DNA of 64,000 nucleotides from Mesorhizobium onobrychidis (GTDB taxonomy: Bacteria; Pseudomonadota; Alphaproteobacteria; Rhizobiales; Rhizobiaceae): positions 5,561,501 through 5,625,500 of the forward strand of contig NZ_CP062229.1 in the NCBI RefSeq assembly GCF_024707545.1, read 5' to 3'. Under the pieces are notes generated by a model. The model worked only from the letters and a program-made list of their open reading frames with translations. It had not been told where the DNA came from and did no database searches. The position numbers and the translations under genes are program-made. Positions 4,437 to 64,000 of this stretch are shown piece by piece (position 1 is the stretch's first letter; each line of letters begins with the position of its first letter).

Positions 4437-4541
4437 CGCCTTCACATCAATCCCGGTTCACTCTCAGGCGGTCATGACTGCGCCCGAAATCAGGCCTGAT
4501 GACGAACGTGTGCGTGCCGAGCCCACGCTTAGGTGTTGCGC

Positions 4542-35230: not shown

Positions 35231-35542
35231 GTGCATCTGCTGCATGTCTTGGGCTATCTCTACGGGTGTCACGGACAGGCAAAGCGGGGCGCGGCATATC
35301 TGCTTATCGCTGCACAGCTGTCGCCGGGAAATGCCGGCGTCCTGCGCACATTGGCGCATCTGCTCATACTCGATGGCGAAGCGGACAAAGCGCTTGCCAC
35401 GATTGCCAGGCTGGAGACGTTGGAGGGAAAGGACCACCCGACGCTAGCGTTGCTGAAGAGCCGCGCGTTGCTTGTGGCCGGCCGCAAGGCCGAGGCGCAC
35501 AATGCCTTGCGAAGCTTCCTATCGCATCGAGCCGCCGAATGA
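35231..35542 (+). CDS. TPR protein, SctG-like T3SS chaperone
   Basis: 103 residues from a GTG start 17 bases after the previous stop. It is built almost entirely of TPR-like helix pairs (AAYLLIAAQLSPGNAGVLRTL and ADKALATIARLE to HPTLALLKSRALLVAG). Small TPR proteins in this position act as chaperones for needle or translocon subunits (YscG type) in other systems. Its stop overlaps the sctV start as ATGA, so expression is coupled. Exact client unknown; the small protein at 33472 is the natural candidate. Confidence 0.75.
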   Translation: MHLLHVLGYLYGCHGQAKRGAAYLLIAAQLSPGNAGVLRTLAHLLILDGEADKALATIARLETLEGKDHPTLALLKSRALLVAGRKAEAHNALRSFLSHRAAE

Positions 35543-37698: not shown

Positions 37699-37755
37699 CG
37701 CCGGCCGGGCGGATTGGGACAGTTGGGGACTCTACATGCTCAAGAGGGGAACGGC

Positions 37756-39111
37756 ATGACAATCCACGATACCGCAGCAGGCGTTCGATCCGCCACTTTC
37801 GCCGGGCGGACGGCTATGCGCTGGCTCGCTATCGCGACGGTTGGCGTCTTGCTGGCGTTTTTGTTCACACTTGCCGACACGATGGCACAGGACATGTCGC
37901 CATTGCCGAGCAAGCCAACGGTCGACCTGCCGGTCGGGCAAGGACGCCTGCTGCGGTTCAATGAACCCGTCGAATCCGTCCTGATCGCGGACACCACGAT
38001 CGCGGACCTTCAGGTCGTGTCGCCGGGAATGGTCTATGTCTTCGGCCTAAAGCCCGGCCTGACAAACCTCATTGCAATCACAGCCGATGAGCGGGTCGAG
38101 GCAACGGCCCAGTTCCGCGTCACCCCCGATGTCACCCCTGCCAACGAAGCGAAACACGCAATGCAGCCGAACTCGGCGACAAATCTCTCGATTTTCGGAA
38201 CCCGCATTGTTGCGACCGGCGAGGCACGAGGCGTCGAAGAGGCAACGGATGTCGACAACATCGCCCGCACGTTCTCGCCGCCGGATCAGCCGCCGCTGAA
38301 CGACATGACCGTGCAGGGATCGCAGCAGGTCAACATCCGGGTCCGCTTCGCCGAAGTCTCACGCACTGAGTTGCAGTCGTACGGCGTCGATTGGTCTGTC
38401 GGGTACAGGAGCGGCGGCTTCGAATTCAACATGTTCCAGGACAATGGTGTGCCCTCCGGCACCGGGAATTTCGGTTTGAACATGGACCAGACGCATGGCA
38501 TCAACTTCGACATTCTCATCGAAGCGCTGCAACGCAACGGCGTCGTCAAAATACTGGCCGAACCGAACCTGACGGCGATGACCGGTCAGACCGCAAGCTT
38601 TCTTGCCGGCGGCGAAATTCCGGTTCCGATTCCGCAAGGAACTGACGTCGTTACCGTTCAATACAAGCCCTTCGGCGTTTCCCTCGGGTTCACCCCTACG
38701 CTGATCGGCCGCAATCGTATTGCGCTCCATGTCCAGCCGGAAGTCAGTTCCTTGTCGGAAGCAGGCTCAGTAAGCGCGAATGGCTTCGCCATGCCGAGTT
38801 TCGTCGTGCGCAGGGCCGACACCACGGTCGAAGTGGCGAGCGGCCAGACCTTTGCGATCGCCGGTCTTTTCCAGCAGCGGACCTCGCGTAATCTGGAAAA
38901 GTTTCCGGTTCTCGGTGATGTGCCGGTCCTTGGCCCGCTTTTTCAGTCACAGCGTTTCCAGCGCGAAGAGACGGAACTGGTGATCCTGATCACGCCTTAT
39001 CTGGTCGAGCCGGTGCGCGACAGTCTTGCCACGCCGCTCGATCGTCCGGCAGCCAAGCGGCACAGGAAGCGCGCCAATGACGCATCGGCGATGGGCCTGA
39101 TCATCAAGTAG
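37756..39111 (+). CDS. cpaC: CpaC-type secretin, presumed T3SS outer-membrane channel
   Basis: About 451 residues. A signal peptide (about 22-46, WLAIATVGVLLAFLFTLADTMA) precedes the Tad-type N-terminal domain (VDLPVGQGRLLRFNEPVESV to GLKPGLTNLIAIT) and a complete secretin domain (about 240-430: VKILAEPNLTAMTGQTASFL, GGEIPVPIPQG, GQTFAIAGLFQQ, ETELVILITPYLVEP). These match CpaC/RcpA of Tad pili rather than YscC. GAGGGGA lies before the ATG. It follows sctV by about 57 bp and precedes a CpaD-like gene; no other Tad genes for pilin, ATPase or platform are present. I infer it is the channel (RhcC2 role) paired with NolW. Confidence 0.88.
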   Translation: MTIHDTAAGVRSATFAGRTAMRWLAIATVGVLLAFLFTLADTMAQDMSPLPSKPTVDLPVGQGRLLRFNEPVESVLIADTTIADLQVVSPGMVYVFGLKPGLTNLIAITADERVEATAQFRVTPDVTPANEAKHAMQPNSATNLSIFGTRIVATGEARGVEEATDVDNIARTFSPPDQPPLNDMTVQGSQQVNIRVRFAEVSRTELQSYGVDWSVGYRSGGFEFNMFQDNGVPSGTGNFGLNMDQTHGINFDILIEALQRNGVVKILAEPNLTAMTGQTASFLAGGEIPVPIPQGTDVVTVQYKPFGVSLGFTPTLIGRNRIALHVQPEVSSLSEAGSVSANGFAMPSFVVRRADTTVEVASGQTFAIAGLFQQRTSRNLEKFPVLGDVPVLGPLFQSQRFQREETELVILITPYLVEPVRDSLATPLDRPAAKRHRKRANDASAMGLIIK

Positions 39112-39124
39112 TGGGGAACCGAAC

Positions 39125-39574
39125 ATGACATTTCGCATCGCTTTGTGCTGTGTTCTTCCAGTGCTGCTTCTGGCCGGCTGCGCGAACAGCCCGCAACAGC
39201 CGCAGGAATATTCTCCCGGCTACAGCTATGTTTCGACCGACACCGGCGGCTCAGAGAAGGGCGTCAGCGGCTCCGTCCTTGCTCCCAATGCATGTCTGAA
39301 CGAACCGGCCGATGACGACCGTTCTGCCGCTGCGACCAATCTGACGATCGTCTCCGGCGTCGGCTCCCACCTGCCGTCCGGTTGCGCCAACGCCTACAAT
39401 CTTCAACGCATGGCCGAAAGCCAGCGTGACCTCGTCGAGGGCCGGCGCATGGGGGCGGCGGCGGCCGCACCGACTGCAAATGCCGCCCGGCGCTACCTCA
39501 ATGGCGAAGAGACTCCCATGGGTGGAGCCAATAGCGGGCCGCTGACGCCGCAAACAACGCTCCCGGTCGAGTGA
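39125..39574 (+). CDS. CpaD-like outer-membrane lipoprotein
   Basis: 149 residues with a lipoprotein signal peptide ending LLLAGC (Cys at 20). The C-terminal part contains GCANAYNLQRMAESQRDLVE, resembling the CpaD family's Cys-Ala-Asn-Leu and Arg-Asp-Leu-Val blocks. It is shorter than typical CpaD (about 220-260 residues), lacking much of the middle. It follows the CpaC-type secretin by 13 bases. In Tad systems CpaD helps assemble the secretin; the same role is inferred here. Confidence 0.75.
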   Translation: MTFRIALCCVLPVLLLAGCANSPQQPQEYSPGYSYVSTDTGGSEKGVSGSVLAPNACLNEPADDDRSAAATNLTIVSGVGSHLPSGCANAYNLQRMAESQRDLVEGRRMGAAAAAPTANAARRYLNGEETPMGGANSGPLTPQTTLPVE

Positions 39575-39668
39575 GCCGATGCGGCCTTGCCCGCGTAGCA
39601 TTACTTTGTCCGGTCATTTGCGCGTCGGGCTCGACCCAAATCGGCTTCGCGCTTTCCGGTCCGCTGCG

Positions 39669-40472
39669 CTAGCCGAGGATAGAGCCGAGCGCTTTCGCCC
39701 TGGCCTGCGTGCTACCCTTCGAACGGATGGTTCTGGCACGCGCAAGCAAGGTATCCACCTCCTTGGTCGCCAGGCCGATCGGCGGCGAGGCCCTGACCTG
39801 ATCGGCCTGGCCGAGAAGTCCGTAGACCACCACGACATTGCGCTTGTGATGCAACTGCGCATTGGGTGCGGCGGAGATCTTCTGGACCAGCGGGAGTGCT
39901 GTGGTGGAATTGCCTTCGAGCGCTGCGGCCAGCGCCATGTTGCTCTCGACGTCGAGATCCTCCGGCGCGAGTTTCAGCGCCTGAGCAAAAGTAGTCTGCG
40001 CCTCCGCCGTCTGACCCGCAAATGTCTGCGCCACGCCCAACCGATTGTAGGCGCTGCTAGTATTGACCAGCGGCGCTGCCTGTGCGAGCGCGCGCATGCC
40101 GGCATCGATATCACCCGTTTCCATCATCGCCGAGCCAAGCCCGAGCATTGCCCCCCCGTCATTGGGGGCTTTTGCGAGCGCGGCCTGATAGGCTCTGGCG
40201 GCCTCGGCGGGATAGCCGGCCCGCATATAGGCCTCGCCCGCCTTGACGAAGGCGCTCGGCTTGGCGTCCGGCATCGCTGCGGCGCGCTGGTAGAGCGCGA
40301 TTGCGGTGTCGCTATCTCCCTGCGCATCTATATCGTCCGCAAGCTTGATCAGACGCTCCGATTGCGACGACGGGCCCTGCGCCTTTGCCTGCTCGGCGTC
40401 GGTTTTGGTCGTCTGACAACCGGCCACCGCCAGCATGGCGACGACGGGCAAGAACACGACATGCAGCCGCAT
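39669..40472 (-). CDS. TadD-like TPR lipoprotein (secretin pilotin candidate)
   Basis: About 267 residues: a lipoprotein signal peptide ending AVAGC (MRLHVVFLPVVAMLAVAGC), then about five to six TPR units (SDTAIALYQRAAAMPDAK, YPAEAARAYQAALAKAPND, GQTAEAQTTFAQALKLAPED). TadD proteins with this layout are Tad-pilus pilotin or assembly factors. The ATG at 40472 follows GAGAGG; a GTG six bases upstream is less likely. It is convergent with the CpaD-like gene and divergent from sctU (85-bp gap), completing a CpaC-CpaD-TadD outer-membrane set inside the T3SS cluster. Confidence 0.83.
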   Translation of the reverse strand: MRLHVVFLPVVAMLAVAGCQTTKTDAEQAKAQGPSSQSERLIKLADDIDAQGDSDTAIALYQRAAAMPDAKPSAFVKAGEAYMRAGYPAEAARAYQAALAKAPNDGGAMLGLGSAMMETGDIDAGMRALAQAAPLVNTSSAYNRLGVAQTFAGQTAEAQTTFAQALKLAPEDLDVESNMALAAALEGNSTTALPLVQKISAAPNAQLHHKRNVVVVYGLLGQADQVRASPPIGLATKEVDTLLARARTIRSKGSTQARAKALGSILG

Positions 40473-40556
40473 ATCCACCTCTCCGTATTCAAGCCCGCCG
40501 CACCTTACACACGGCCTTGGCCGACTGGAACCACAACAGTGCGATAAGATTGCAAC

Positions 40557-41597
40557 ATGGCCGAAGAAGCTGAGGAAAAAAAACTACCGGCGTCCGACAA
40601 GAAGCTTCGTGACGCTCGCCGGAAAGGCCAGGTTTCGCAAAGCCGCGACCTGGTCTCCGGCTTCACTCTTTTCGCAGCGCTTGGCTATCTCTATTTTGCC
40701 TGGCCGATGCTCGTCGAGCACCTTTCGGAACTCGTGCAGACCGTGACCGCCCCCGGCGATTCGTTCGGGGAAGTCAGCCAGCGGGCCATCCGCCATTCGT
40801 TCTCATTGCTGATGCTTGCGACTTTGCCGCTGGTCGGAATCGTTGTCGTTCTCACGGTGGCCTTCGGCATGCTGGGGACGTTTGGGCCAGTCTTCTCGTT
40901 TGAGCCGCTCAAGCCGCAATTCGATCACATAAACCCGGCGAAGGGCCTTCAGAAGATCCTGTCGCTGCGAAACGTCATCGAGTTCACCAAAGGCCTGGCC
41001 AAGGTGGTGTTGCTGGCCAGCCTCTTCGCGTTCATTTTGATCGCGTGGCTGCAGCCGCTCTTCGATGCTCCAGGATGCGCTCCGTCATGCCTAGAGCCGA
41101 TCATCAAGGCGGTGCTGACACCACTTGGAATTGCCGCCGCCCTGGCCTTTGTCGTCATCGGCGTGATCGATGTTCCTATTCAGCGCTGGCTGTTCCTGCG
41201 CGACATGCGCATGACGACAACTGAATACAAGCGCGAACACAAGGACCTCGAAGGCGATCCCTTGATTCGGCATGAACAGCAGCGACAGCGGCGTGAGGCC
41301 GTGATGCAACCTGCGAAGCTGGGCGTAAAAAACGCCGTCATCGCCTTCGTGTCTGGTGACCGCGTAGTGGCGTTGCGTTACGTCAAGGGTGAAACGCCGG
41401 TGCCAACGGTCGTCGGCAAGGGCCAGGGCCGAGCGGCAGACGAGATGATGGCTCAAGCACGCCAGGCAGGTATTCCCGCGGTCGAGGATGCGGCCGTCGT
41501 CAGCCCACTCTTCGAAAATACGAACACCGGAGCTTACATCGGACAGGAGATGTTCTCACCGGTCGTACGCCATCTTGTCCGGCTCGGGCTCACTTGA
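40557..41597 (+). CDS. sctU: T3SS export switch protein SctU lacking the NPTH site
   Basis: 346 residues of the FlhB/YscU family. The start EKKLPASDKKLRDARRKGQV-type segment is followed by four transmembrane helices (about 33-205), the cytoplasmic linker, and a C-terminal domain with VVALRYVKGETPVPTVVGKG. The autocleavage motif Asn-Pro-Thr-His expected ten residues before that block is absent: aligned on ALRY, the positions are V265-S266-G267-D268. Without the Asn-Pro pair self-cleavage by the usual mechanism is not possible. The gene is about 29 kb from sctT, whereas rhcU normally follows rhcT. It is otherwise full length. Confidence 0.92.
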   Translation: MAEEAEEKKLPASDKKLRDARRKGQVSQSRDLVSGFTLFAALGYLYFAWPMLVEHLSELVQTVTAPGDSFGEVSQRAIRHSFSLLMLATLPLVGIVVVLTVAFGMLGTFGPVFSFEPLKPQFDHINPAKGLQKILSLRNVIEFTKGLAKVVLLASLFAFILIAWLQPLFDAPGCAPSCLEPIIKAVLTPLGIAAALAFVVIGVIDVPIQRWLFLRDMRMTTTEYKREHKDLEGDPLIRHEQQRQRREAVMQPAKLGVKNAVIAFVSGDRVVALRYVKGETPVPTVVGKGQGRAADEMMAQARQAGIPAVEDAAVVSPLFENTNTGAYIGQEMFSPVVRHLVRLGLT

Positions 41598-45776: not shown

Positions 45777-45819
45777 GCGGTGACGCCCGCGAGAAGCTTT
45801 GCCAGGTGGGGAAAATACT

Positions 45820-47970
45820 ATGACGGTGTTCTATGATAGCAGCCGTCCAGACGCTTTCGCCGGCGGTGCCGGTTCGGACGCAGTCACTTACGGCGCTTCG
45901 TCCCGTGGAGTCATCGCCGATTTGGCTTCCGGTCATGCTTACAAGTTGCTGTCGATACTGCCGCTGGGCGATTCCATTACATATGGAGTGATCGCGAGCT
46001 CTTCCGATACCGAAAGCGGCGGATATCGGAAGTTTATGCTGGAACAGTTGGGCGCACTCAATGTGAAGATCGACTTCGTCGGTTCCTCGTCCAACGGCCC
46101 CGCCAGCATGGGCGATCGGGATCACGAAGGTCACCGCAACTGGACGCTCAATCAACTGAACGGCATCGACAACGATGTTGTGGCAGCTACGAAACCCGAC
46201 GCCGTGCTGCTGATCGCCGGAACAAATGACAGCTCGACCGATAGCGTGCCAACGATGCTGCAGGATCTGCGCACCCTTTTGCTCAGCCTGACCTCCAGCG
46301 ATCCCGCCTTGACCGTCTTCGTCGGATCCTTGCCTCCCGTTCGCGTCGGCCAACAGTCACAAGCGCGTGCAGACCGTGTCGATGCGTATAACGATGCAAT
46401 GCCCGGTCTGATCTCTGAACTGGCCGCCCAAGGGCATAAGGTCATCTTTGTCGACATGCGTGATCTGACACCAGATGACATCACAGCACCGCCGCTTGAC
46501 AGCGGACTGCATCCGACTGCCGATGGCTATGCGAAAATCGCCGCGCACTGGATAGATGCCCTGGAGGAACACTTCAGGCTGGACGGGACCGGCATCGGAA
46601 GAGACCGCGATACCTTCACCAGCATTGAAAATCTTACAGGGTCTTCCTTTGCCGACCAACTCGGCGGAAACGAGGGAGCCAACGTGCTGGATGGGCTGGC
46701 GGGCGATGACGTGCTGGAGGGCCGCGGCGGCTCCGACCAACTCATCGGCGGGGTCGGCGCCGACACGCTTGTCGGCGGCGCGGGTAATGACGTCTACTAT
46801 GTCGACAATGCCGGTGACAAAACCATCGAGGCGACCAATGGCGGCATCGACGAAACGCACGCCTATCTAAACTGGACCCTGGCCGACAACGTCGAAAACC
46901 TCTTCCTGAGGTCGGCTGCCAATCTGGCGGCAAAAGGCAACGGGCTCGCCAACACCATGGTGGGCAACGGCGCAGCGAACACGCTCGAAGGCCTCGGCGG
47001 CGCAGATCGGCTGGACGGCCGAGGCGGGTCGGACCGGCTCGTCGGTGGTCTTGGCACCGATATCCTCACCGGTGGAACGGGAAACGACAGCTTCGTCTTC
47101 GCCACCGGCCACGGCCACGACACCGTCACCGACTTCGACCTTTCCGGCGACGATCTCCTGGAGATTTCAGGCTACCAGAGCTACAGCGAACTCAGGCAGG
47201 TCGGGAGCGACACGCTGGTCGTCTTCTCCGACAGTGACACTGTTCTCCTGAAAGACGTGACCAGCGCCTCCTTGAGCAGTTCGGATTTCGTCTGGATCGA
47301 TCCACCCAACGAGCCGCCGCCGGGGTCAATCGTAGGGGACGACGGCAACAATACGCTTACCGGCGGTTCCGGTGCGGACGTCATTTATGGAATGGACGGC
47401 AGCGACATCTTGAACGGAAAAGCGGGCGCCGACACGCATGTCGGCGGCGCGGGTGATGACGTCTACTATGTCGACAATGCCGGTGACAAAACCATCGAAG
47501 AGACCAATGGCGGCTTCGACGAGACGCACGCCTATCTAAACTGGACCCTGGCCGACAACGTCGAAAACCTCTTCCTGAGGTCGGCTGCCAATCTGGCGGG
47601 AAAAGGCAACGGGCTCGCCAACACCATGGTGGGCAACGGCGCAGCGAACACGCTCGAAGGCCTCGGCGGCGCAGATCGGCTGGACGGCCGAGGCGGGTCG
47701 GACCGGCTCGTCGGTGGTCTTGGCACCGATATCCTCACCGGTGGAACGGGAAACGACAGCTTCGTCTTCGCCGCCGGCCATGGCCACGACACCATCACCG
47801 ACTTCGACCTTTCCGGCGACGATCTCCTGGAGATTTCAGGATACCAAAACTACAGCGAACTCCGGCAGGTCGGGAGCGACACGCTGGTCGTCTTCTCCGA
47901 CAGTGACATGCTTTCACTAAACGGTGTCCTCGTTGCAAGCATCTCGAACAGCGATTTTCTCTTCGTGTAG
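45820..47970 (+). CDS. SGNH hydrolase with RTX repeats, type I secretion substrate
   Basis: About 716 residues. An N-terminal RTX-like stub (FAGGAGSDAVTYG) is followed by an SGNH domain (about 45-265: ILPLGDSITYGV, VLLIAGTNDSS, GLHPTADGYAKIA) and two long calcium-binding blocks with nonapeptides such as GGAGNDVYYVD and GGTGNDSFVF. The two blocks are near-identical in DNA (offset 669 bp). There is no Sec signal; glycine-rich repeats and the short hydrophobic end (NSDFLFV) mark a type I exporter cargo, plausibly for one of the PrsDE pairs in this window. Possible substrate: acylated surface polysaccharide (inference). GGGGAA precedes the ATG at 45820. Confidence 0.88.
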   Translation: MTVFYDSSRPDAFAGGAGSDAVTYGASSRGVIADLASGHAYKLLSILPLGDSITYGVIASSSDTESGGYRKFMLEQLGALNVKIDFVGSSSNGPASMGDRDHEGHRNWTLNQLNGIDNDVVAATKPDAVLLIAGTNDSSTDSVPTMLQDLRTLLLSLTSSDPALTVFVGSLPPVRVGQQSQARADRVDAYNDAMPGLISELAAQGHKVIFVDMRDLTPDDITAPPLDSGLHPTADGYAKIAAHWIDALEEHFRLDGTGIGRDRDTFTSIENLTGSSFADQLGGNEGANVLDGLAGDDVLEGRGGSDQLIGGVGADTLVGGAGNDVYYVDNAGDKTIEATNGGIDETHAYLNWTLADNVENLFLRSAANLAAKGNGLANTMVGNGAANTLEGLGGADRLDGRGGSDRLVGGLGTDILTGGTGNDSFVFATGHGHDTVTDFDLSGDDLLEISGYQSYSELRQVGSDTLVVFSDSDTVLLKDVTSASLSSSDFVWIDPPNEPPPGSIVGDDGNNTLTGGSGADVIYGMDGSDILNGKAGADTHVGGAGDDVYYVDNAGDKTIEETNGGFDETHAYLNWTLADNVENLFLRSAANLAGKGNGLANTMVGNGAANTLEGLGGADRLDGRGGSDRLVGGLGTDILTGGTGNDSFVFAAGHGHDTITDFDLSGDDLLEISGYQNYSELRQVGSDTLVVFSDSDMLSLNGVLVASISNSDFLFV
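46750..47240 (+). repeat. internal tandem duplication, copy 1
   Basis: About 490 bp nearly identical to 47419-47909 (offset 669 bp), encoding one RTX block with its linker, from the Asp-Tyr-Tyr-Val-Asp nonapeptide to a Val-Phe-Ser-Asp-Ser strand. Only scattered differences are visible, so the duplication is recent or kept alike by recombination. Confidence 0.9.
47419..47909 (+). repeat. internal tandem duplication, copy 2
   Basis: Second copy of the RTX block described at 46750-47240; substitutions such as Ala to Gly in NLAGKGNG distinguish it. The region between the copies (47241-47418) encodes a Pro-rich linker (DPPNEPPPG) and a further short repeat. Confidence 0.9.
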
Positions 47971-51680: not shown

Positions 51681-52000
51681 GGCTCCCTCTCCCTCCCTGA
51701 TAGGGTAAGCGCCCCCGTCCCCTAAAGCGTTGCCTTGACCACCTCTTTGAACGAGTCCGATTTCCGGTCCGTTCTCGCGCGGACGCGTTAAGGCAGAAAA
51801 TATTAGCACATTAGGATACGATAAAATAGCGACTCGTGTGCCCGGGGTAACAGCGGCATGTCTCTGAGACATTTAAATCAAATCTAACCGACTGGAAGCC
51901 GTTGGGATAACCCCCTCCTTATGGGATGGCGTGTGCCATGAGCCAAGAAGGAGAAGGGATGCAACAGGATTCGGGGGGTCGTCACTATGCGGCATGCACC
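51677..52000 (+). repeat. EPS-locus intergenic repeat, copy A
   Basis: About 320 bp from the crp start codon to the first codons of the glycosylphosphotransferase, recurring at 60727-61045 (B) and 63256-63675 (C). The invariant block TGTGCCCGGGGTAACAGCG is at 51838-51856 here, 60969-60987 in B and 63504-63522 in C. Other shared elements are AAAGCGTTGCC, TTTGAACGAGTCCG and CTGGAAGCCG. All copies face the same way. Confidence 0.88.
51858..51872. promoter_or_regulatory. perfect palindrome, candidate regulator site
   Basis: ATGTCTCTGAGACAT is a perfect 7-1-7 inverted repeat just after the invariant block of copy A. Copy B keeps a symmetric CGTCTCTAAGACG at 60991-61003, with compensating changes on both arms; copy C has the imperfect GTTCTCTGAGACG at 63526-63538. 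Paired changes suggest a protein-binding site; the adjacent Crp/Fnr regulator is the obvious candidate. Confidence 0.55.
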
Positions 52001-53438
52001 AACCGAGGCGTCGCGTGCGCTCTGGAAGCGAAGCGTAGAGCCGCTACGGCTTCCTGTGGGAGCAGTTTGCGTGTTTCTCGCAACTGCTGATTTCCTCCTT
52101 GGACAGACAATACTTCTTGCGTCAATTGAGCTCTACCATAGGGCCTTCGGCGTGAGGCCGCCAGATATCTGGGATTCGATCTGCCTAAGTGTTACCGCCG
52201 GTCTGTTGCTGGTCGCATTCATGACCGCCAGGGGCGCCTACACGGTTAGTGGCATCCTGGACGATCACTGCAGGATCAAAACACTCTTCAGCGGCTGGCT
52301 GTTTGTTTTCTTTTCAATTCTCTGGCTCGCCTTTCTCACGAAGACGACGTCGACGTTCTCGCGCGGCTCCTTGACGCTGGCGTTTGCGGTCGGATTCCCA
52401 ATCCTGCTGCCTGGCCACGCGGTTCTAGCGCGTGGGCTGAAACGGCTTCTGGCGGCTGAGAAACTCGTGTTGCGCACAGTTTATCTGTTTTACTCTGGCG
52501 TTCCTGGAAAGGAACAGGGGATAATCAACAAGCTTGGGCAACAGGGCATCGCGGTTTGTGGTGTTTCGAACATCGAGAACGATGATGGCACGATCGCAGC
52601 ACGATCGGTGCATGCCGCCGCCGCAGCTGCACAGGCTGCGTTCCGTAATGGCTCGTATGGGGCAGTTTATCTCTTTTGCTCTTGGGACCAGCGGAAGTTG
52701 ATCGAACGCATCCTGGAGGAAATGTCCCGCCTCCCCCTGCCGATCTATCTTTTCGCCGACGCCTACATAGATAGAATTCTGGCTGGATGCCCGCTGCACA
52801 CCGGCTGGCAGCGGGCCTTCGAAGTCCAGCGTGTGCCTTTGAGGCCTGCCGAACGCCTGCTGAAGCGGTTGTTCGACATTGCTGTTGCATCCCTGCTCCT
52901 GCTGTTCCTGTGTCCGTTGATGGCCTTGGCCGCATGTGCCATAGCGCTCGAGAACGGTCGCCCTGTGGTGTTCCGGCAGATGCGACGAGGTTTTGGTGGT
53001 AAGCCGTTCAATATTTACAAATTCCGATCGATGACGGTGCAGGAGAACGGTACACAAATTCGCCAGGCTCAGCGTAATGATGCGCGGGTTACCCGACTTG
53101 GCCGAATATTGCGCCGGTCAAACATCGACGAGCTGCCGCAATTATTCAACGTGCTTCGGGGGGAGATGTCCCTGGTTGGGCCCCGACCTCACGCCGTCGC
53201 TCATGACGATACCTATAGTGTGATCATTGCGAGCTATGCTTATCGCCATCATGTAAAACCCGGTTTGACAGGCTGGGCTCAGATCAATGGCTTTCGAGGG
53301 GAAACGAAGGAACTCTGGAGGATGGAAAAACGCGTTGAGCACGACCTCTGGTATATAAAATCCTGGAGCATGCTTCTCGACGTTAAGATAATTTGGAAAA
53401 CTGCTCTACTGATCTTTTCGGATCGTAATGTCTATTGA
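51987..53438 (+). CDS. polyprenyl-phosphate glycosylphosphotransferase (EPS initiation)
   Basis: 483 residues: four N-terminal transmembrane helices (about 25-155), a cytosolic Rossmann-like region (about 160-270), a fifth helix (about 295-317) and the C-terminal bacterial sugar transferase domain with PFNIYKFRSMTVQENG, RRSNIDELPQLFNVLRGEMS, LVGPRPHA and GLTGWAQINGFRGET. Relatives (WcaJ, ExoY-like, PssA) attach the first sugar phosphate to undecaprenyl phosphate at the inner membrane to start EPS repeat-unit assembly. The ATG at 51987 is used; copy C of the upstream repeat carries a relic of the same first codons (RHAPT). Confidence 0.93.
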   Translation: MRHAPTEASRALWKRSVEPLRLPVGAVCVFLATADFLLGQTILLASIELYHRAFGVRPPDIWDSICLSVTAGLLLVAFMTARGAYTVSGILDDHCRIKTLFSGWLFVFFSILWLAFLTKTTSTFSRGSLTLAFAVGFPILLPGHAVLARGLKRLLAAEKLVLRTVYLFYSGVPGKEQGIINKLGQQGIAVCGVSNIENDDGTIAARSVHAAAAAAQAAFRNGSYGAVYLFCSWDQRKLIERILEEMSRLPLPIYLFADAYIDRILAGCPLHTGWQRAFEVQRVPLRPAERLLKRLFDIAVASLLLLFLCPLMALAACAIALENGRPVVFRQMRRGFGGKPFNIYKFRSMTVQENGTQIRQAQRNDARVTRLGRILRRSNIDELPQLFNVLRGEMSLVGPRPHAVAHDDTYSVIIASYAYRHHVKPGLTGWAQINGFRGETKELWRMEKRVEHDLWYIKSWSMLLDVKIIWKTALLIFSDRNVY

Positions 53439-53807: not shown

Positions 53808-54950
53808 CTATGAGCTTCCGCTCGACGGCATCCGGCTCTTGATTTCCTTTAGAATGTTGGTTGCGCGTGCGATGCGGCTGTACTTGGCCAGAAAGTCTGC
53901 CTTCGCCTGCTGACCAATCTGATCCCGAAGCGCCTTGTTTTCGCGCAGGCGCTGAAGAGCTTTGACCCAGTCGGACGGGTTGTCTGGCGACACCAGAACG
54001 CTGTTGACGCTATCCCTCAAAACTTCTCGGATAACTGACAGGTCGGAGGACACTATGGGTTTGCCATGCGCCATATATTCGAAGAGCTTGCGCGGCGACA
54101 TCCCCTCGGCGATATTTCGACCGCCGCCCTCGCCCTCTACATCTCTAAGATAGGGCGCGAGTACAACGTCCATTTCGGCCAAGTAGGCACATGTCGTGGC
54201 GTGAGGAACGTAGCCGTGAAACACTGTGTTCGGGCATTTGGCCAGCTTCGATGTCCAATACTCTATATCGCCTGGTGTTCCCCCGACGATGTGAAATGTC
54301 GCCCAGCCGCATCGAGGCGCGATAGCGCTTATTATCTCCATGCCTTTTCCCTTATACAGATGTCCGACATAACCAACCTTGAACGTGCCGCTGAGGCTGC
54401 ATGGCTCGACATTCGGCGCCATTGGGCGCGATGAGAAGTTTTCCTGCATGTTGAGGAAAGAGGCGGATGCCGTCGTCCCGCAGACGTTGCGACGTGACGA
54501 CCAGCATACGGAATGCCTCTAGGCCTATCACTTTGGCAAGGCGCTGACGCTGACGTCTGCTCAAACTGCCAATCGGGTCGTGAAGCTCAAAAACGGTCGT
54601 GAACCCGAAAAGTCCGGCAGAAACAAGCGCTACAGTAGCCGAGCGTGTAAAAGACGACATGCGGCCGCAGCCAGACCGCAGCAAGCAGCGCCAACACAGC
54701 AAAAAAAGCTCCCGGCCGGGCACAGGCCAAAAGGGTACAGGGAGAACGCGGAATGGGAACTCGGTACCGAATCCGTATCGCGCGCGATCTTTTCATAATG
54801 ATCCCGTGTATTCATGGAGGCGCGTGGAAGCGCTAGTAGGACCTCCGCTCCGGCAACCCGAAATGATGGCACATCTTTGCGACTTGTACCGCATTGGCGG
54901 CCGGCGCCGGGACGTGCGCAGAATGTATATAGAGTAGCCGCATCCACAAA
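53808..54950 (-). pseudogene. glycosyltransferase family 4-type pseudogene, several frameshifts
   Basis: Pieces in different frames line up as one glycosyltransferase: ANAVQVAKMCHHFGLPERRS near 54900 (followed by an in-frame stop), FFAVLALLAAVWLRPHVVFY near 54700, FTTVFELHDPIGSLSRRQR near 54580 and LFPQHAGKLLIAPNGAE near 54440. The intact C-terminal donor-binding domain is at 53808-54449 (FKVGYVGHLYKGKGMEI, MSPRKLFEYMAHGKPIVSSD). At least three frame changes and a stop make the gene non-functional as a whole, though the C-terminal domain alone remains open. Confidence 0.82.
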
Positions 54951-55202: not shown

Positions 55203-56351
55203 TCAAAGCCCCAGCCAGCCAGCAATAATGTTGCGCTGTATCTCCGAAGTTCCGGAATAGAGTTTGCTGCCGATGGCATCACGCACGGCACGTTCGACGT
55301 CGAATTCGCTCAAGAAACCATAGCCGCCGAAGACCTGGACGACATCGAGCGTGGTGCGAACTAGCGATTCGCTCACAAAGAGCTTCGAAACGGCGGCGTC
55401 GAGGGATATGGACTCGGAGCGCTCAAGGCCCCACGCCGCCTTGTAGACGAGCAGTCGGGCCGCCTCCACCTGCATCTTCATGTCGGCAATCTTATGGGCG
55501 ACCGCCTGGTGCTTGGAGATGGCCTGGCCGGACTGACGTCTGGTGCGCGTATAGGCCACTGCCTTTTCCAGAAGCCGCTCCATGGTGCCTACATGACTGG
55601 CGAATAGGCACGCCCGCTCCCAGTCCATGCTATGAACGAACAGCCTGGAGCCGCCGCCCACTCCACCGAGAACAGCGTCCTTCGAAACAAATACGTCCTC
55701 GAAGACAAGCTCCCCGATCGGAGACGTCCGCAGTCCCATTTTTTCGAACTCTTGCGCGACCCGATAGCCGGGCAGCGCGCGGTCCACGAGGAAGCTCGTG
55801 ATGCCGCCGAAATACCCCTTGGCGCGGTCAGTGACTGCAAAGACGACGGCAACATCTGCCACCGGCCCGTTGCTCACGAAGGTCTTCGTGCCGTTGATTA
55901 GAAAGCCGTCGCCATGAGGCTCCGCCCGGGTTTGCATCGCAAATGCATCGGAGCCCGACCCCGGTTCGCTCATCGCATTGGCTGCGATCAAAGTGCCATC
56001 ACAGAGCCCCGGAAGATATCGATTCTTCTGCTCGTCAGTGCCGAACTTCCAAATCGGCACCACGCAGGCCAGAAGGTGGGCGCAGATCGAGAAGACCAAG
56101 CCGGAATCCTCGCAGCCGTAGCCAAGCGCCTCGATTGCAATGGCCGTGGACAGGGAATCGAGACCGGGTCCCCCGTAGGCCTGGGGGACTGGCAGGCCGG
56201 TCAGGCCCATCTGCGCACAAGCCCCCCACAACTCGCGCTGGAATACTTGGTCTCGGTCGCGCTGCCTGATATCTTTATTGAGCTTATCTTGCGCGAAGCG
56301 AAGGATCTGGCCGCGCAGGATACGCTGCTCCTCGTTCAGCGCGAAATCCAC
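55203..56351 (-). CDS. acyl-CoA-dehydrogenase-like flavoprotein, candidate prolyl-carrier oxidase
   Basis: 382 residues with full ACAD architecture: helical N-domain, middle beta-domain (ANAMSEPGSGSDAFAMQT), and C-terminal helices with FGGYGFLSEFDVERAVRD and SGTSEIQRNIIAGWLGL. The usual base in the Tyr-Glu-Gly-Thr motif is replaced (LYSGTSEIQ), but a Glu in SMDWERACLF sits where isovaleryl-CoA dehydrogenase has its base. The GTG start shares one base with the adenylation gene's stop. In pyrrole pathways (PltE, RedW) such flavoproteins oxidise L-prolyl-carrier to pyrrole-2-carboxyl-carrier; the neighbouring prolyl-type adenylase and carrier make that the best hypothesis. Confidence 0.88.
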   Translation of the reverse strand: MDFALNEEQRILRGQILRFAQDKLNKDIRQRDRDQVFQRELWGACAQMGLTGLPVPQAYGGPGLDSLSTAIAIEALGYGCEDSGLVFSICAHLLACVVPIWKFGTDEQKNRYLPGLCDGTLIAANAMSEPGSGSDAFAMQTRAEPHGDGFLINGTKTFVSNGPVADVAVVFAVTDRAKGYFGGITSFLVDRALPGYRVAQEFEKMGLRTSPIGELVFEDVFVSKDAVLGGVGGGSRLFVHSMDWERACLFASHVGTMERLLEKAVAYTRTRRQSGQAISKHQAVAHKIADMKMQVEAARLLVYKAAWGLERSESISLDAAVSKLFVSESLVRTTLDVVQVFGGYGFLSEFDVERAVRDAIGSKLYSGTSEIQRNIIAGWLGL

Positions 56352-57931
56352 TACTCCATCCTCATCAGATGCTGGTAGTCGATTTTATCTGTCGATGTCT
56401 TCGGAAGTAACTTCTGATGCGAGAACCAGTCCGGGGCCATGTAGGCCGGCAAGTTGTAGGCGCAGAACCGCTTCAGTTCGATGAGCGACAGCGCATGGCC
56501 GTCGCGCGAGGCATAGAACACCTTAATGGAGACGCCCGACTCCTCCGAGCGAGCGATCGCCGCCACCTCGGAGATCGCTGGATGGCGATAGAGCGCCGTC
56601 TCGATCTCGCCGAGTTCGATCCGATATCCCCGCCTCTTCACCATCCTGTCGCGTCGACCGCGGAAGGTGTAGACTCCGCCATCGCCTTCGATCACTACAT
56701 CGCCGGTACGGTACCAGCGACCGCTTGAATCGACGTGAAAAGCGGCGCTTGTTCGCTCAGGCATGTTCCAATAGCCCAGCATCACGGGAGCACCGCTGAT
56801 TGCGAGCTCGCCTTCCTGGCCTCGCGGCACGTTGCGGCCATTCGCATCGATCACGCGTGCCTTAACATGCGAGCAGGCGCGCCCGATCGGAAACGGCGCC
56901 GTGCGGTCTTCGGCGATCGTCTGCGGGATTTCGTAGTAGGTACAGACGTTGGTTTCGGTTGGGCCATAAAGATTCAGGTAACGTGCGCGTGGGACCACAG
57001 CCTTCAGCCTGCGCAGATGCTTGACCGGAAAAACTTCGCCGGCAAATAGAATGAACCGAAGAGCGTGGTCGTCGCGAGCATCAAGGCCGCCGTGCTCGAC
57101 CAGAAGCGTGAGTACGGAGGGCGTGGAATACCAGACGGTCAACCGCCGCTCGGCGATAACCGACGCCATCCGGGTCGGATTCTTGCCGAGATCCTCACCG
57201 ATGAGGAATACGGTCGCGCCGTGCTTCAGCGGTACGAAGATGTCGAGGATAGACAGGTCGAAGTGGAAAGGCGCATGGGAGGAGAAGCGGTCATTCTCGT
57301 CAGGGGCGAGGATCTCGGAGCACCAATCCACGTAGCTCGAGCCATTACGATGCGTCAGCATCACGCCCTTCGGCTGGCCGGTCGAGCCCGAAGTGTAAAG
57401 CACGTAAGCGAGGTTGTCCGGCCCCGGCCGCGCCGATTCGTCCTCCACCGCCAAGCCGCCGGCCTCTACGCGAGCCAGGTACGTCGCGAGCGGCGAGGGA
57501 CCGTCGGACCAGTCGAGCGGTAAGAGACAAGGTTCCGCCGCCAAGCGCGCCAACTCACAGCGCAAAGTTTCGGCTCGGGAAGCCTCCACGAAAATCGCGC
57601 GCACGCCGCAGTCGGTAAATATGAACGCGTTACGCGCAGGCGGTGCCAGAGAGTCGACGGGCACATAGGCCGCGCCCACCTTCAAGATGCCGAACAGAAC
57701 AGCGAGCGAGGCGATCGATTTTGGAAGGCAAATGCCGACGCGGTCCGCCGGCCGGACGCCGATCCGACGCAGATGGTCGCGGACTTGGTCCGACAGCGCG
57801 TCGAGCTCGCCGTAGGTGATCTGCCGCCCAGAGCTCGCCTCGACGGCGGCGCACGTCTGGGGATACCGCCTCGCGCTCTGTTCCAGGTACTCGTGCAAGA
57901 TAGCGACCGGCATGACGGGCTCTACGTGCAC
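56351..57931 (-). CDS. free-standing amino-acid adenylation enzyme, prolyl-type code
   Basis: 526 residues of the adenylation (DltA/NRPS A-domain) family: A3 LYTSGSTGQPKGVMLTH, A5 NLYGPTETNVCTYYE, A7 YRTGDVV, A8 RRGYRIELGEIE and A10 PKTSTDKIDY. Aligning with PheA by eye, the specificity residues read D, L, L, Y, L, A, L, V, C, K (FDLSIL; VWYSTP; LFAG; YLNLYG; NVC; DKID). I recall this as the code of free-standing L-prolyl adenylases (PltF, RedM, CloN4). It activates an amino acid as AMP ester and loads the carrier protein encoded just upstream, whose 3' end it overlaps. Start GTG 57931 or ATG 57913. Confidence 0.9.
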   Translation of the reverse strand: MHVEPVMPVAILHEYLEQSARRYPQTCAAVEASSGRQITYGELDALSDQVRDHLRRIGVRPADRVGICLPKSIASLAVLFGILKVGAAYVPVDSLAPPARNAFIFTDCGVRAIFVEASRAETLRCELARLAAEPCLLPLDWSDGPSPLATYLARVEAGGLAVEDESARPGPDNLAYVLYTSGSTGQPKGVMLTHRNGSSYVDWCSEILAPDENDRFSSHAPFHFDLSILDIFVPLKHGATVFLIGEDLGKNPTRMASVIAERRLTVWYSTPSVLTLLVEHGGLDARDDHALRFILFAGEVFPVKHLRRLKAVVPRARYLNLYGPTETNVCTYYEIPQTIAEDRTAPFPIGRACSHVKARVIDANGRNVPRGQEGELAISGAPVMLGYWNMPERTSAAFHVDSSGRWYRTGDVVIEGDGGVYTFRGRRDRMVKRRGYRIELGEIETALYRHPAISEVAAIARSEESGVSIKVFYASRDGHALSLIELKRFCAYNLPAYMAPDWFSHQKLLPKTSTDKIDYQHLMRME

Positions 57932-58182
57932 GCCTGCTTCGATTGCACGAAATTGGCAATATGGGCGATGGAGTTCAGGTTCTCCGGCACGAGTTCGTCG
58001 GGGGCGATTTCGATGCCGCAGGACTTTTCCAGGTAGGCAACGAGCTTAAGCGTCGCCAGCGAGTCGAGAATGCCGCCAGTTATCAGCTCCGTTGAATCCG
58101 TCAGATTCTCCGGCATTTCACCAGGCAGGAATTCCTTCAATATGAAATCCCTGGCCATCGTCCTGATCTGGATTGCGTTCAT
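57922..58182 (-). CDS. acyl/peptidyl carrier protein
   Basis: 86 residues starting MNAIQIRTMARDFI, with the phosphopantetheine site G-G-I-L-D40-S41-L42 at the start of helix 2 and the usual four-helix spacing (LKLVAYLEKSCGIEIAPDEL, then IAHIANFVQSK). The ATG overlaps the stop of the MBOAT-SGNH gene (ATGA), and its end overlaps the adenylation gene start. It would carry the activated amino acid between the adenylase, the flavoprotein and the membrane acyltransferase, like DltC or PltL. Confidence 0.92.
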   Translation of the reverse strand: MNAIQIRTMARDFILKEFLPGEMPENLTDSTELITGGILDSLATLKLVAYLEKSCGIEIAPDELVPENLNSIAHIANFVQSKQACT

Positions 58183-60788
58183 TGTTCCTCCTTGTGCGGA
58201 GCAACCGCAAGGTTCAGGGGAATTAGATCCCTGTGTTGCTGCAGCACCTCGTAAAGCTTGTCGGCGATGAGCCGATGGCCGGCGGCGTTTGGGTGATCGT
58301 CCCAAGGTGCTACAAGAAGGGTCCGCCAGTCGTGCCCGTCATACACGTTGGAAAGATCGAGAACGTTGAATCCAGCCTCGGCAGCGAGGCGCCTCTCCAG
58401 CTCGGGACTGGTCCTCTCGTCTGGTCTGGGTAGATAGATCCAAAAGACCCCGACACCTTCTCGCTTCGCAGCTTCCACGATTCGAGAATAGATTGCACGC
58501 AGAAGTCTCTCTCCGTAGGGCGTGAGCTTTCTTTGAAGCACCTCGCGGTCGGCGCTGGGATCGATCCCGCTCTCGCGTACAATGTCGCTCACGAAGTCGT
58601 AGCGATATGCGGAGCCATTCTGGATTGCTGTCGCGAGACGCTTTAGCATTCGTGGAATAAGCGCGGTGTGCTCGAAGTAAAAAATGTACTGTGGTTTGAA
58701 TGCGAGCACCCGATCCTCGGTGATGGCCAGAACGTCCAGAGGAACATAGCCCCCGACGGCGAAGTTCAGCACCTCGTAATCTCGGTACCCGCTGTCGGCC
58801 GCCTGTTCATTCAGCCGCCGCTCCAACAGGCCCTCGAAAATCTCTTCATCCGCGACGCCCTCGCCGAAGACGTGCGAAGAGCCGACGATTGCAATTCGTA
58901 GGGTGCCGGGATAAGGAATCTTCTCGTAGTCCTGATCTCGCATGCCCCAGCGGTTGATATGGACCCGATTTCCCTTATAGTCTGCTTGGGAGAGTGGACG
59001 CAGATAGATCGTGGGAAGCGCACCCGTAAACTCAATCAGCGGCGTCTTGTGTAAATTGACCCATCCCTCGTCTCGTCGTTGGCCGTAGACAATCCACAGT
59101 TCTGGGTTAAAAGCGCTGACATTGACGAGGTTCTCGTAGTAGCCGCGCTCCAGGTTCTCGTTGTCGCGGCTATTGAGGTTCGGCGCTCTAATGTCGGCCA
59201 TTGCGGTACTCACAGTCTCGCCGAGGCGATCGCGAAACCCGGGGAGCGAGATGCAAACCGCGATCAACCCGCAGACACCGACCGACGCAACCGACCGCCG
59301 AAAACTGTATTGGCGGTCGGCGGCGCCCCGCGCGAGCGCAAGGGCAGGAATGCCAATGATAGCTGCTACCGTGAGCAGCACGAGGGCGGGCGTTGTTTTG
59401 CCAGGGCCTTCCACACCCACGGTTTCGAAGACCGAGAACCATTGCGGGACCGAGCTCGCGCTCCAAAACGACCAAAGGAGCGAGATGACGACGAACACGC
59501 CGATGGTCCGGCCAACAGTTTGCAGCGCACCGTTCCAGCTGAGTGCCCCGCCACGCAGGCGCCGCGTGCGACCGTGCCGCATTTCATAGTGGGCGTTGAT
59601 CGTCACAAGCACGGCCAGGATCATCCAGAAGAGGAAGTCGTTCCAGGTGAATACCCAGGTGCCACGTAACCAGAACCACTGATAATTGTGCAGCAGCCAA
59701 GTCGCGAGGAACGCCAGGAGGGTCGCGCTCACCAGCGCTACGCTCTCTCCCCAGCGTCGAAAACGAAAATACATTGGATAGTATACAATTTTCATTATGA
59801 AGTCCTTCCAGTATATATTTATTCTACGCCAGAAATCTGTGAAACTTGAGGAAAGAAAGTACAGATTGTGGGTTTCTGGAAGATTGAATCCAAATAAATG
59901 CAAAATCCCGGTGATTATGTGAAAAGTTCCTGAAACCTTCAGATAAAGTAAAAATGGCCATATGATAAATTGCAAAAGTTCAATCTGATTCTTTACGTCC
60001 GCAGCATCGATCACAAACCGCTGGTACACGATACGGTAGCATATTAAATGGATAGCGCCGCGAAACATCCACTGAACACCTGTTTGATAGATATAATGCC
60101 GGTCAGCATTGTAGTAGCTGCTACGGAAAGTTCTAAAATCTACGACCGGAAAGAGCGGGAAGCACACGTTCGGCAACATGAAAAAATACGCGAGACGTTC
60201 CGAAACCGTCGCCATCCTCTGGTCACGCCGCATTTCGTACGCATAGACAATGAGACGGAACATGAACATTGAAGCGAGCACGGGCCAGACGGCGCGCGTC
60301 CACGGGATCGCAATCCAGTCCATTCGTGCGGCGGCGAGCCCGCAGCCGGCGCCAACCAGCGCCAGCACTCTCCATCCAAAAGCGATCGGTAGGTGGACAA
60401 TTCCGATCAGTACGAGCCCAATGGCGACGATCCAGGCGGCATCGATGAGGCCCTCAAATCTCCAGTGGTGCCAGTTGGGCCCAAGGTTCGCGAAAACTGC
60501 GGCGATAGCCGCGAACGAGAGCAGCACGAAAAACGGCAGCCGGTAACGCTGTGGCAGGAAGTAGTGCACGCACCAGCCGGCGAGGGCAACGAGCAGGACG
60601 CGGACAAGCGCAGTAGTCTCGAGCCTGAGGAGATAGACCAGCGCGATGAAGAGGGCCATCTCGCCGGCTATGGCGAACCAAGCCAGGATGCTTCTCGACT
60701 CAGTCCCCGTAGGATCCGCCGACCAGGGAAGAGACAATGTCTTGATCGAATGCACGCTCGCGCGCCTCAACCAGCTGCCAGCGGACAT
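58179..60788 (-). CDS. MBOAT acyltransferase fused to an SGNH domain
   Basis: About 869 residues. The N-terminal ~490 form an MBOAT membrane domain with about 12 helices, the FTDFWRRINIYWKDFIMKI motif and a catalytic-type His (LLHNYQWFW, about residue 367). After another helix, the periplasmic C-terminus (about 560-869) is an SGNH/DltD-AlgX-like domain with IAIVGSSHVFGEG (Ser about 637), LNFAVGGY and PWDDHPNAAGHRLIA. MBOATs pass acyl groups from a carrier to an extracytoplasmic acceptor; here DltB- and DltD-like functions are in one chain. Start uncertain: ATG 60788 lies in a segment repeated in copy C, ATG 60659 is the next choice. First gene of the adenylation operon. Confidence 0.87.
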   Translation of the reverse strand: MSAGSWLRRASVHSIKTLSLPWSADPTGTESRSILAWFAIAGEMALFIALVYLLRLETTALVRVLLVALAGWCVHYFLPQRYRLPFFVLLSFAAIAAVFANLGPNWHHWRFEGLIDAAWIVAIGLVLIGIVHLPIAFGWRVLALVGAGCGLAAARMDWIAIPWTRAVWPVLASMFMFRLIVYAYEMRRDQRMATVSERLAYFFMLPNVCFPLFPVVDFRTFRSSYYNADRHYIYQTGVQWMFRGAIHLICYRIVYQRFVIDAADVKNQIELLQFIIWPFLLYLKVSGTFHIITGILHLFGFNLPETHNLYFLSSSFTDFWRRINIYWKDFIMKIVYYPMYFRFRRWGESVALVSATLLAFLATWLLHNYQWFWLRGTWVFTWNDFLFWMILAVLVTINAHYEMRHGRTRRLRGGALSWNGALQTVGRTIGVFVVISLLWSFWSASSVPQWFSVFETVGVEGPGKTTPALVLLTVAAIIGIPALALARGAADRQYSFRRSVASVGVCGLIAVCISLPGFRDRLGETVSTAMADIRAPNLNSRDNENLERGYYENLVNVSAFNPELWIVYGQRRDEGWVNLHKTPLIEFTGALPTIYLRPLSQADYKGNRVHINRWGMRDQDYEKIPYPGTLRIAIVGSSHVFGEGVADEEIFEGLLERRLNEQAADSGYRDYEVLNFAVGGYVPLDVLAITEDRVLAFKPQYIFYFEHTALIPRMLKRLATAIQNGSAYRYDFVSDIVRESGIDPSADREVLQRKLTPYGERLLRAIYSRIVEAAKREGVGVFWIYLPRPDERTSPELERRLAAEAGFNVLDLSNVYDGHDWRTLLVAPWDDHPNAAGHRLIADKLYEVLQQHRDLIPLNLAVAPHKEEQ

Positions 60789-61045
60789 CGACAAGAAGTA
60801 GCTTTGGGGCACGCGAAAGATCCGCAAGCTGCTGGTCCCCCTCCCATGGCTCCCATCCCTGACGGGTAAAGCGCCCGGTCCTTAGAGCGTTGCCTTGACT
60901 TCTTTGAACGAGTCCGGTTCCGCGCAAACGCAGAAGTACATAAGTGTATCAGAGAAAAATCGCTCCGCTGTGCCCGGGGTAACAGCGACCCGTCTCTAAG
61001 ACGCTTAAATCCAACAAGCTAAATCTGACCGCTTGGAAGCCGATT
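60727..61045 (+). repeat. EPS-locus intergenic repeat, copy B
   Basis: Shares the core with copy A (60841-61045) and a further ~110 bp to the left with copy C only (60727-60840). That left part encodes the first residues of the MBOAT gene on the minus strand (GSWLRRAS, SIKTLSLP), so copy C preserves the 5' end of a second such gene. Palindrome at 60991-61003. To the right lies a truncated glycosyltransferase. Confidence 0.85.
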
Positions 61046-63255: not shown

Positions 63256-63675
63256 AACCAAGCTGGCTTCTCGGGGAAGGGACAATGTCTTGATCGACTG
63301 CCCGCTCGCGCGCCTCAACCAGCTGCCGCCGCACATCGACAATAAGTAACGTGGAGCACGCGAAAAATCCGCAAGCTGCGGGTCTGCCCTTAAAGCATTG
63401 CCTCCAATACTTTTTTGAACGGGTCCGGTTCCGATCCGATTTCGCGCAAACGCGGTGAGGCAGAAGTATTGGTACAAGATATACCACAAAATAATCACTC
63501 CGCTGTGCCCGGGGTAACAGCGGCAGTTCTCTGAGACGTTTACATCCAACAAGTTAGATCTGATCACTGGAAGCCGTTGGAATAACCCTCCTTACGGACT
63601 GCAAGTGCCATGGCCCAAGAAGGAAGGGCACACTTAGGATTCGGGGTTCATCTCCATACGGCATGCACCCACCGG
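63256..63675 (+). repeat. EPS-locus intergenic repeat, copy C
   Basis: The longest copy. Its left end (63256-63380) matches copy B and keeps the remnant 5' codons of an MBOAT-type gene. The core (63385-63600) matches A and B, and the right end (63600-63675) matches copy A through the glycosylphosphotransferase start, where ATG has become ATA followed by the same RHAPT codons. Confidence 0.85.
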
Positions 63676-63791: not shown

Positions 63792-64000
63792 ATGAAAGTA
63801 CAGGATGCGGAAGGCAAGATTGACGTGGGGCGTCGACTGCGTATCGCTCATGTCATCACCCGTCTCATCAATGGCGGTGCTGATGAGAATACTGTCCATT
63901 CCTGCAATTGGGCCGCGCAAGGGGGGCATGATGTTGCCCTGCTACATGGCGAGACGGTCCTGCCGGAAATCATAGCTAAAGTGGACCCGCGGGTGGAACT
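63792..64000 (+). CDS. glycosyltransferase N-terminus, cut by the window end
   Basis: 69 codons from MKVQDAEGKIDVG, with LRIAHVITRLINGGADENT and then WAAQGGHDVALLHGE, the typical first strand and loop of the acceptor domain in family 4 glycosyltransferases (GGADENT is common in EPS examples). The gene is open to the window edge. It lies just downstream of repeat copy C and would be driven from it. Confidence 0.82.
   Translation, partial: MKVQDAEGKIDVGRRLRIAHVITRLINGGADENTVHSCNWAAQGGHDVALLHGETVLPEIIAKVDPRVE

Follow-up and report, generated by a model that had tools for sequence, protein, structure and literature searches.

What does an operon do in which the parts of an antibiotic-type carrier pathway stand beside a membrane acyltransferase? 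The question is raised by a locus in Mesorhizobium onobrychidis (contig NZ_CP062229.1), within the stretch of 64,000 nucleotides analysed here (positions 5,561,501 to 5,625,500), which we call the window. Four minus-strand genes (55203-60827) encode a fusion of an MBOAT and an SGNH domain, a carrier protein, a stand-alone adenylase and an acyl-CoA dehydrogenase (ACAD)-type flavoprotein. Each open reading frame (ORF) touches or overlaps the next, which bears out the four coupled genes claimed in an earlier note on this DNA. The operon probably specifies a carrier-fed transmembrane acylation system, in which proline would be loaded, oxidised and relayed to an extracytoplasmic acceptor. Relatives of the fusion number 222 in genome contigs (84,980 species), and the locus counts given below use the best 80 of these 222. 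A locus was scored as holding the full set when carrier, adenylase and ACAD matched at 55, 250 and 150 bits or more, respectively.

The adenylase exceeds the NCBIfam cutoff for amino-acid adenylation (373.1 against 317.4 bits). Its best stand-alone solved relative is 6o6e, an L-proline--[L-prolyl-carrier protein] ligase that we take to be PltF (333.9 bits). Over the whole chain, six multi-domain non-ribosomal peptide synthetase (NRPS) sequences outscore 6o6e, whereas over the pocket region 6o6e ranks first with 179.8 bits, ahead of the best NRPS (118.2), the prolyl ligase 7thn (116.4) and the best DltA (97.6). At the pocket positions D, L, L, Y, L, A, L, V and C the adenylase is identical to 6o6e at 9 of 9 aligned positions, so that the L-prolyl pocket code read earlier holds. 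The full code DLLYLALVCK is exact in 36 of 53 aligned rows, carries one change in 13, and in 4 has its first nine residues with the last unaligned. These rows are the window together with the 52 loci that tblastn matched at 100 bits or more; the second adenylases of L048 and L061 were left out, and where a locus gave several matches only the longest went into the alignment. From the pocket we strongly infer a specificity for L-proline. A Dlt operon, D-alanylating an envelope polymer and lying next to an unrelated ACAD, would likewise place an adenylase, a carrier, a DltB-like MBOAT and an SGNH protein side by side. We regard it as very improbable, as the whole adenylase scores below the cutoffs of the NCBIfam DltA models, the ACAD stays with the set in different phyla, and the clustering with DltA that had been named beforehand as a telling counter-sign did not appear in the pocket scores. 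D-alanylation was thus rejected on a pocket that is PltF-like.

The flavoprotein has as its best PDB matches 4irn (prolyl-ACP dehydrogenase, 381.9 bits), 5zw0 (L-prolyl-carrier dehydrogenase, 326.3), 6cxt (324.5; deposited as butyryl-CoA dehydrogenase, presumably Bmp3) and 6af6 (323.6), all four above 4l1f (282.7 bits). The expected kinship with prolyl-carrier oxidases is therefore found. The helix-G Glu of 5zw0, which is Ala in the PigA-type entry 6af6, has its equivalent in Glu245 of the window ACAD. Of the 48 rows that have a letter at this position, 47 retain it, the exception being a Gly in L081, whose ACAD is of another type; where ACADs usually have their base, 48 of 49 rows have Ser. 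With the pocket match and the helix-G Glu base both in place, the adenylase, carrier and ACAD resemble the proline-to-pyrrole trio, as had been proposed.

How far the oxidation goes is a separate matter, and it is possible, if rather doubtful, that the transferred group is prolyl or two-electron-oxidised dehydroprolyl, with the rest of the machinery unchanged. The single best PDB match, 4irn, is presumably AnaB, a two-electron oxidase yielding dehydroprolyl only, and the ACAD stays below the NCBIfam equivalog cutoffs for PigA (456.7 against 500 bits) and RedW (418.5 against 650). The position that is His in AnaB is also His in 16 of 44 cassette-locus ACADs; however, it is Asn in 27, the window included, as in 5zw0 and 6cxt, and Tyr in L081. 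The residue was not decisive as a marker of two- versus four-electron oxidation. Three Chloroflexota loci (L056, L064 and L102) have carrier and adenylase and no ACAD in the locus sequence examined, but their contigs stop near the cassette, and therefore the ACAD may have been missed. Weighing the Asn shared with 5zw0 and 6cxt against the missed cutoffs and the AnaB match, we favour a pyrrole-2-carboxyl-carrier as the most likely product in the window operon.

Halogenase genes beside related cassettes also argue against a prolyl or dehydroprolyl group. Of 172 ORFs listed at 37 non-Mesorhizobium full sets, 121 were scanned and 51 left out, and the Trp_halogenase and FAD-halogenase models match 5 of those scanned. 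L100 holds a full set and has a pair of FAD halogenases between fusion and carrier, the first of which scores 237.0 bits to 5bva (which we take to be Bmp2), 127.4 to PltA and 125.7 to 5buk. In L092 two FAD halogenases follow ACAD, fusion and carrier, and the one of the pair that was tested gave 261.6 bits against 5bva and 124.3 against PltA; no adenylase was found in the 13 kb examined there, the contig starting inside the ACAD. Because Bmp2, PltA and Mpy16 act on pyrrolyl carriers, halopyrrolyl carriers are the most likely products at both loci. The Bmp2-like halogenases of these two distant relatives of the operon, one of which has no adenylase in the sequence examined, give independent support for pyrrole. 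Weaker FAD relatives occur in three loci with full sets (L044, L082 and L105) and in two for which no partner was found (L068 and L094), and a Rieske oxygenase together with a B12-radical-SAM protein is common to L044 and L065. Genes for electron-transferring flavoprotein (ETF) lie near L044 and L099, which fits a dehydrogenase passing electrons to ETF. A CPA2-type Na+/H+-exchanger-like protein is encoded beside the FAD halogenase genes at L100:8068-9507, L092:3722-5032 and L082 about 4246-5523.

The predicted fold of the fusion is a DltB-like MBOAT followed by an SGNH domain. The PF03062 MBOAT model gave no match to it at E 0.001, although the predicted fold agrees, and in the Pfam scan the SGNH match was below threshold only. 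His380, Tyr564 and Ser651 are present in 81 of 81 rows, and His845 in all 80 rows with a letter there. Between the two halves sits a near-invariant R/K-G-Y-Y-E-x-L segment (Gly562 in 81 of 81 rows, Tyr563 and Glu565 in 80, Leu567 in 78), which falls within a low-confidence stretch, 561-581, of the structure model. An FXYXXF acyl shuttle in PatA and DltX, with a relay through acyl-Tyr, is described in PMC12148441. By its resemblance to that motif, we propose the segment as a candidate built-in acyl shuttle.

The route would then run as follows. The adenylase would very probably activate L-proline and load it on the carrier, and the ACAD would oxidise the prolyl-S-carrier, with pyrrole-2-carboxyl-S-carrier as the most likely product. 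By homology, the MBOAT half would carry the acyl group through the membrane to Tyr564 (or Tyr563) of the shuttle in the same chain, whence it would pass to Ser651 of the fused SGNH domain and end as an ester on a hydroxyl of the extracytoplasmic acceptor. In some other bacteria, the halogenases or the Rieske/B12-radical-SAM pair may tailor the ring before transfer. The carrier has its Ser41 in 64 of 64 aligned rows. Between the four operon genes and five Mesorhizobium loci, dN/dS is 0.12-0.38 in 19 of 20 comparisons, indicating purifying selection. The twentieth (the MBOAT of L029) was dropped, an internal stop having shifted the codon alignment out of register. On these values, decay of the operon itself was rejected.

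All three partners accompany the fusion in 45 of the 80 loci, and in 36 of the 43 whose sequence extends 4.5 kb or more to either side (28 of 35 when the eight Mesorhizobium loci are set aside). Of the seven exceptions, L068, L089 and L097 have none of the three partners; L069 and L083 have a carrier only, that of L083 with another AMP-binding enzyme; L081 combines a carrier and a distant ACAD with another AMP-binding enzyme; and L099 has carrier, adenylase and ETF genes near a contig end. Judging from some of these loci, loaders of other kinds may also feed the fused transferase. L039, L047, L062, L075 and L097 each hold at least two MBOAT-SGNH genes or gene fragments, and none of the five shows the full proline trio in the locus sequence examined; these may perhaps be relatives fed by CoA or another carrier. 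The 45 full sets are spread over nine phyla (Pseudomonadota, Acidobacteriota, Gemmatimonadota, Rhodothermota, Hydrogenedentota, Calditrichota, Myxococcota, Planctomycetota and Verrucomicrobiota), and the closest named relatives of the fusion, among the matches listed, are from Mesorhizobium. Prevalence was low in a sample of Pseudomonadota, with 2 of 398 genomes, G000 and G406, the latter with carrier and adenylase within about 1 kb of the fusion. To speak of rhizobia alone is too narrow in view of the phyla reached. In the adenylase tree, 52 rows fall on one side of a branch from eight references (support 96/90); adenylases of up to 330 residues and ACADs of up to 300 were left out of the trees.

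The position of the operon beside exopolysaccharide (EPS) genes is supported by flanking glycosyltransferases and a Bac_transf sugar transferase and, beyond the window end, a second glycosyltransferase, a Wzx-like flippase and a pyruvyl transferase (Pfam, L106:7293-13139). A Crp-type regulator is also among the window neighbours. The downstream glycosyltransferase, frameshifted in the window, is full-length in 6 of 8 other Mesorhizobium loci. L026 has the same setting with this gene intact. These flanking genes specify a polysaccharide that is probably the acceptor in Mesorhizobium. Glycosyltransferase models also match near L084 (Microvirga). Given the mixed context elsewhere, the case for a surface polysaccharide is strongest in Mesorhizobium and partial in Microvirga, and a general tie to polysaccharide clusters outside rhizobia was not supported, the best glycosyltransferase family matching 10 of 121 neighbours.

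This context bears on whether the MBOAT-SGNH protein might acylate a metabolite or lipid in a small-molecule natural product pathway rather than a polymer. The same trio serves antibiotics, and it serves prodigiosin too (L132/L134); outside rhizobia, a polysaccharide cluster is missing around many cassette loci; 1 of the 121 neighbours matches a beta-ketoacyl-ACP synthase model; and a second adenylase-like gene lies near the cassette in L048 and L061. However, beyond that synthase no polyketide synthase (PKS) or NRPS model occurs among the 25 commonest neighbour families, out of 141 and 181 matched, and the Mesorhizobium loci sit inside polysaccharide gene sets. Moreover, the MBOAT/SGNH systems named in PMC12148441 modify envelope polymers. 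We therefore judge a small-molecule product unlikely.

Returning to transmembrane acylation with a proline-derived group, several observations weigh against it, in addition to the missed ACAD cutoffs, the AnaB match and the L092 locus. Fusion and adenylase occur in the same 10 of 146 Mesorhizobium genomes, so that the set is sparse in the genus, with M. muleiense (L030) and M. amorphae (L032) among its carriers; the ACAD was found in those 10 and, as one 47% relative, elsewhere among the 146. The cassette ACADs are not one clade, at least three label changes being forced with natural-product references among the cassette rows, and therefore the cassette need not have been inherited whole; the ACAD tree was not decisive. 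The fusion frames of L029 and L105 have one internal stop each. The invariant Tyr of R/K-G-Y-Y-E-x-L is not accompanied by either Phe of FXYXXF. The commonest glycosyltransferase model reaches no further than the count given above, and neighbourhoods outside Mesorhizobium and Microvirga are often housekeeping, e.g. argB-like and cysN-like. Residue 690, which we take to be SGNH block II, is Gly in 33 of 81 rows, Ala in 28 (the window's residue) and Ser in 20. Ser or Asn at block II is linked to transferases in PMC12148441. On balance, a pyrrolyl or prolyl decoration of a glycan, as first put forward, remains the best-supported reading on account of the pocket, the ACAD relatives and the halogenases, while the glycan acceptor and the full oxidation are what we infer.

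A limited literature search, including the parts of PMC12148441 and PMC9558356 available to us, found no description of such a system. The broader proposal seems to us evenly balanced: that a widespread and apparently undescribed system allows bacteria of at least nine phyla to esterify extracytoplasmic glycans with pyrrole-2-carboxyl groups, halogenated in some lineages, by a single-chain MBOAT-shuttle-SGNH protein fed by the antibiotic-type proline-to-pyrrole carrier pathway. If so, a building block of antibiotics and pigments would also be a recurrent decoration of bacterial surfaces, and in Mesorhizobium an accessory surface modification. An aromatic, possibly halogenated, surface group would be predicted that standard glycan analysis may overlook. 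The fusion would also offer a one-chain model of Tyr-relay acyl transfer across membranes, with the shuttle built in between two enzymes.

Some further observations concern the MBOAT-SGNH gene and its surroundings. In G016 its frame (C1:5044741-5047385) is split near residue 644, and in G194 (C31:477383-480025, the coordinates of L029) one TGA lies inside the frame. The 5' end and upstream stretch of the window gene (60726-61042) recur at 63274-63576, 2.5 kb upstream and in the same orientation (112 bp at 88% and 89 bp at 84% identity), resembling a truncated duplicate; similar fragments are present in L030 and L031. On a Pseudohalocynthiibacter plasmid (L130:4559-9898), genes for a carrier, a prolyl-dehydrogenase-like ACAD, a methyltransferase and an adenylase stand beside YjbH/YjbF-type EPS genes and adjoin a HupE/UreJ_2 protein, with no MBOAT-SGNH match; this may represent a parallel use of that carrier chemistry. 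Elsewhere in the window, FHIPEP, secretin and FlhB/YscU-family genes stand in a row at 35266-41597, as in a non-flagellar type III secretion locus, and one protein at 45799-47970 has a GDSL domain followed by RTX calcium-binding repeats.

Table 1. Features of the operon and its flanks, in window coordinates
Feature	Position	Strand	Evidence or remark
MBOAT-SGNH fusion	58179..60827	-	882 aa from TTG 60827 or 869 aa from ATG 60788; open frame, predicted fold
MBOAT half, residues 71-465, catalytic-type His380	59433..60617	-	
G562-Y-Y-E-N-L567, proposed built-in acyl-shuttle motif	59127..59144	-	conserved column; compare FXYXXF (PMC12148441)
SGNH half, residues 640-873, Ser651 and His845	58209..58910	-	conservation; matches SGNH esterases
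Carrier protein, 86 aa, phosphopantetheine site Ser41	57922..58182	-	PF00550
Stand-alone L-prolyl-type adenylase, 526 aa	56351..57931	-	pocket DLLYLALVCK; 6o6e as top stand-alone PDB match
Prolyl-carrier dehydrogenase-like ACAD, 382 aa, helix-G base Glu245	55203..56351	-	PDB matches 4irn, 5zw0, 6cxt, 6af6
Downstream glycosyltransferase, frameshifted	53811..54949	-	Glycos_transf_1; pieces in different frames
Initiating sugar transferase (Bac_transf)	51987..53438	+	PF02397, 227.9 bits
GT4-type glycosyltransferase, first part	63792..64000	+	Pfam on L106:7293-13139

Among known systems, the assembly of pyrrole-2-carboxyl carriers (PltF/PltE/PltL, PigI/PigA/PigG, CloN4/CloN3/CloN5) shares with the operon a prolyl adenylase, a prolyl-carrier dehydrogenase and a discrete carrier; the operon, in contrast, would feed a membrane acyltransferase rather than a PKS, an NRPS or a cytosolic acyltransferase. 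Aminocoumarin pathways, too, finish with a sugar esterified by a pyrrole group, but this is made inside the cell. The brominated-pyrrole (Bmp) pathway has an ACAD (6cxt) and a halogenase (5bva) among the best solved relatives of cassette parts; to our knowledge it makes free halopyrroles and has no MBOAT-SGNH transferase. The fusion itself resembles PatA/PatB, AlgI/AlgJ/AlgX and WssH in its MBOAT fold, invariant His, extracytoplasmic SGNH Ser and Tyr-containing segment after two extra helices, but differs from them in being a single chain, fed by a carrier (PatA uses acetyl-CoA), with R/K-G-Y-Y-E-x-L in place of FXYXXF. OatA/OafA AT3-SGNH proteins likewise join a transmembrane acyltransferase to an SGNH domain, and a Tyr relay has been shown for OatA, but they have the AT3 fold and an acetyl-CoA donor.

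The Dlt system (DltA/DltC/DltX/DltB/DltD) resembles the operon in having a stand-alone adenylase, a carrier, an MBOAT, an SGNH transferase across the membrane and a Tyr shuttle, putative in the operon, whereas the operon has an L-proline pocket, an extra dehydrogenase, MBOAT and SGNH in one chain and a shuttle that is apparently internal rather than a DltX. The DltB-like MBOAT is present by predicted fold; a separate DltD is not in the operon, the SGNH domain being fused to the MBOAT. The overlapping genes leave no room for a DltX between them, and just outside the operon there is no minus-strand ORF of 25-75 aa with F-x-Y-x-x-F/L, the rest of the genome not having been searched. Because of the substrate pocket, the fusion and the lack of a DltX beside it, the operon is not a member of the Dlt family, yet as judged from its genes it appears to work like a Dlt/Pat system and like a pyrrolyl-carrier pathway.

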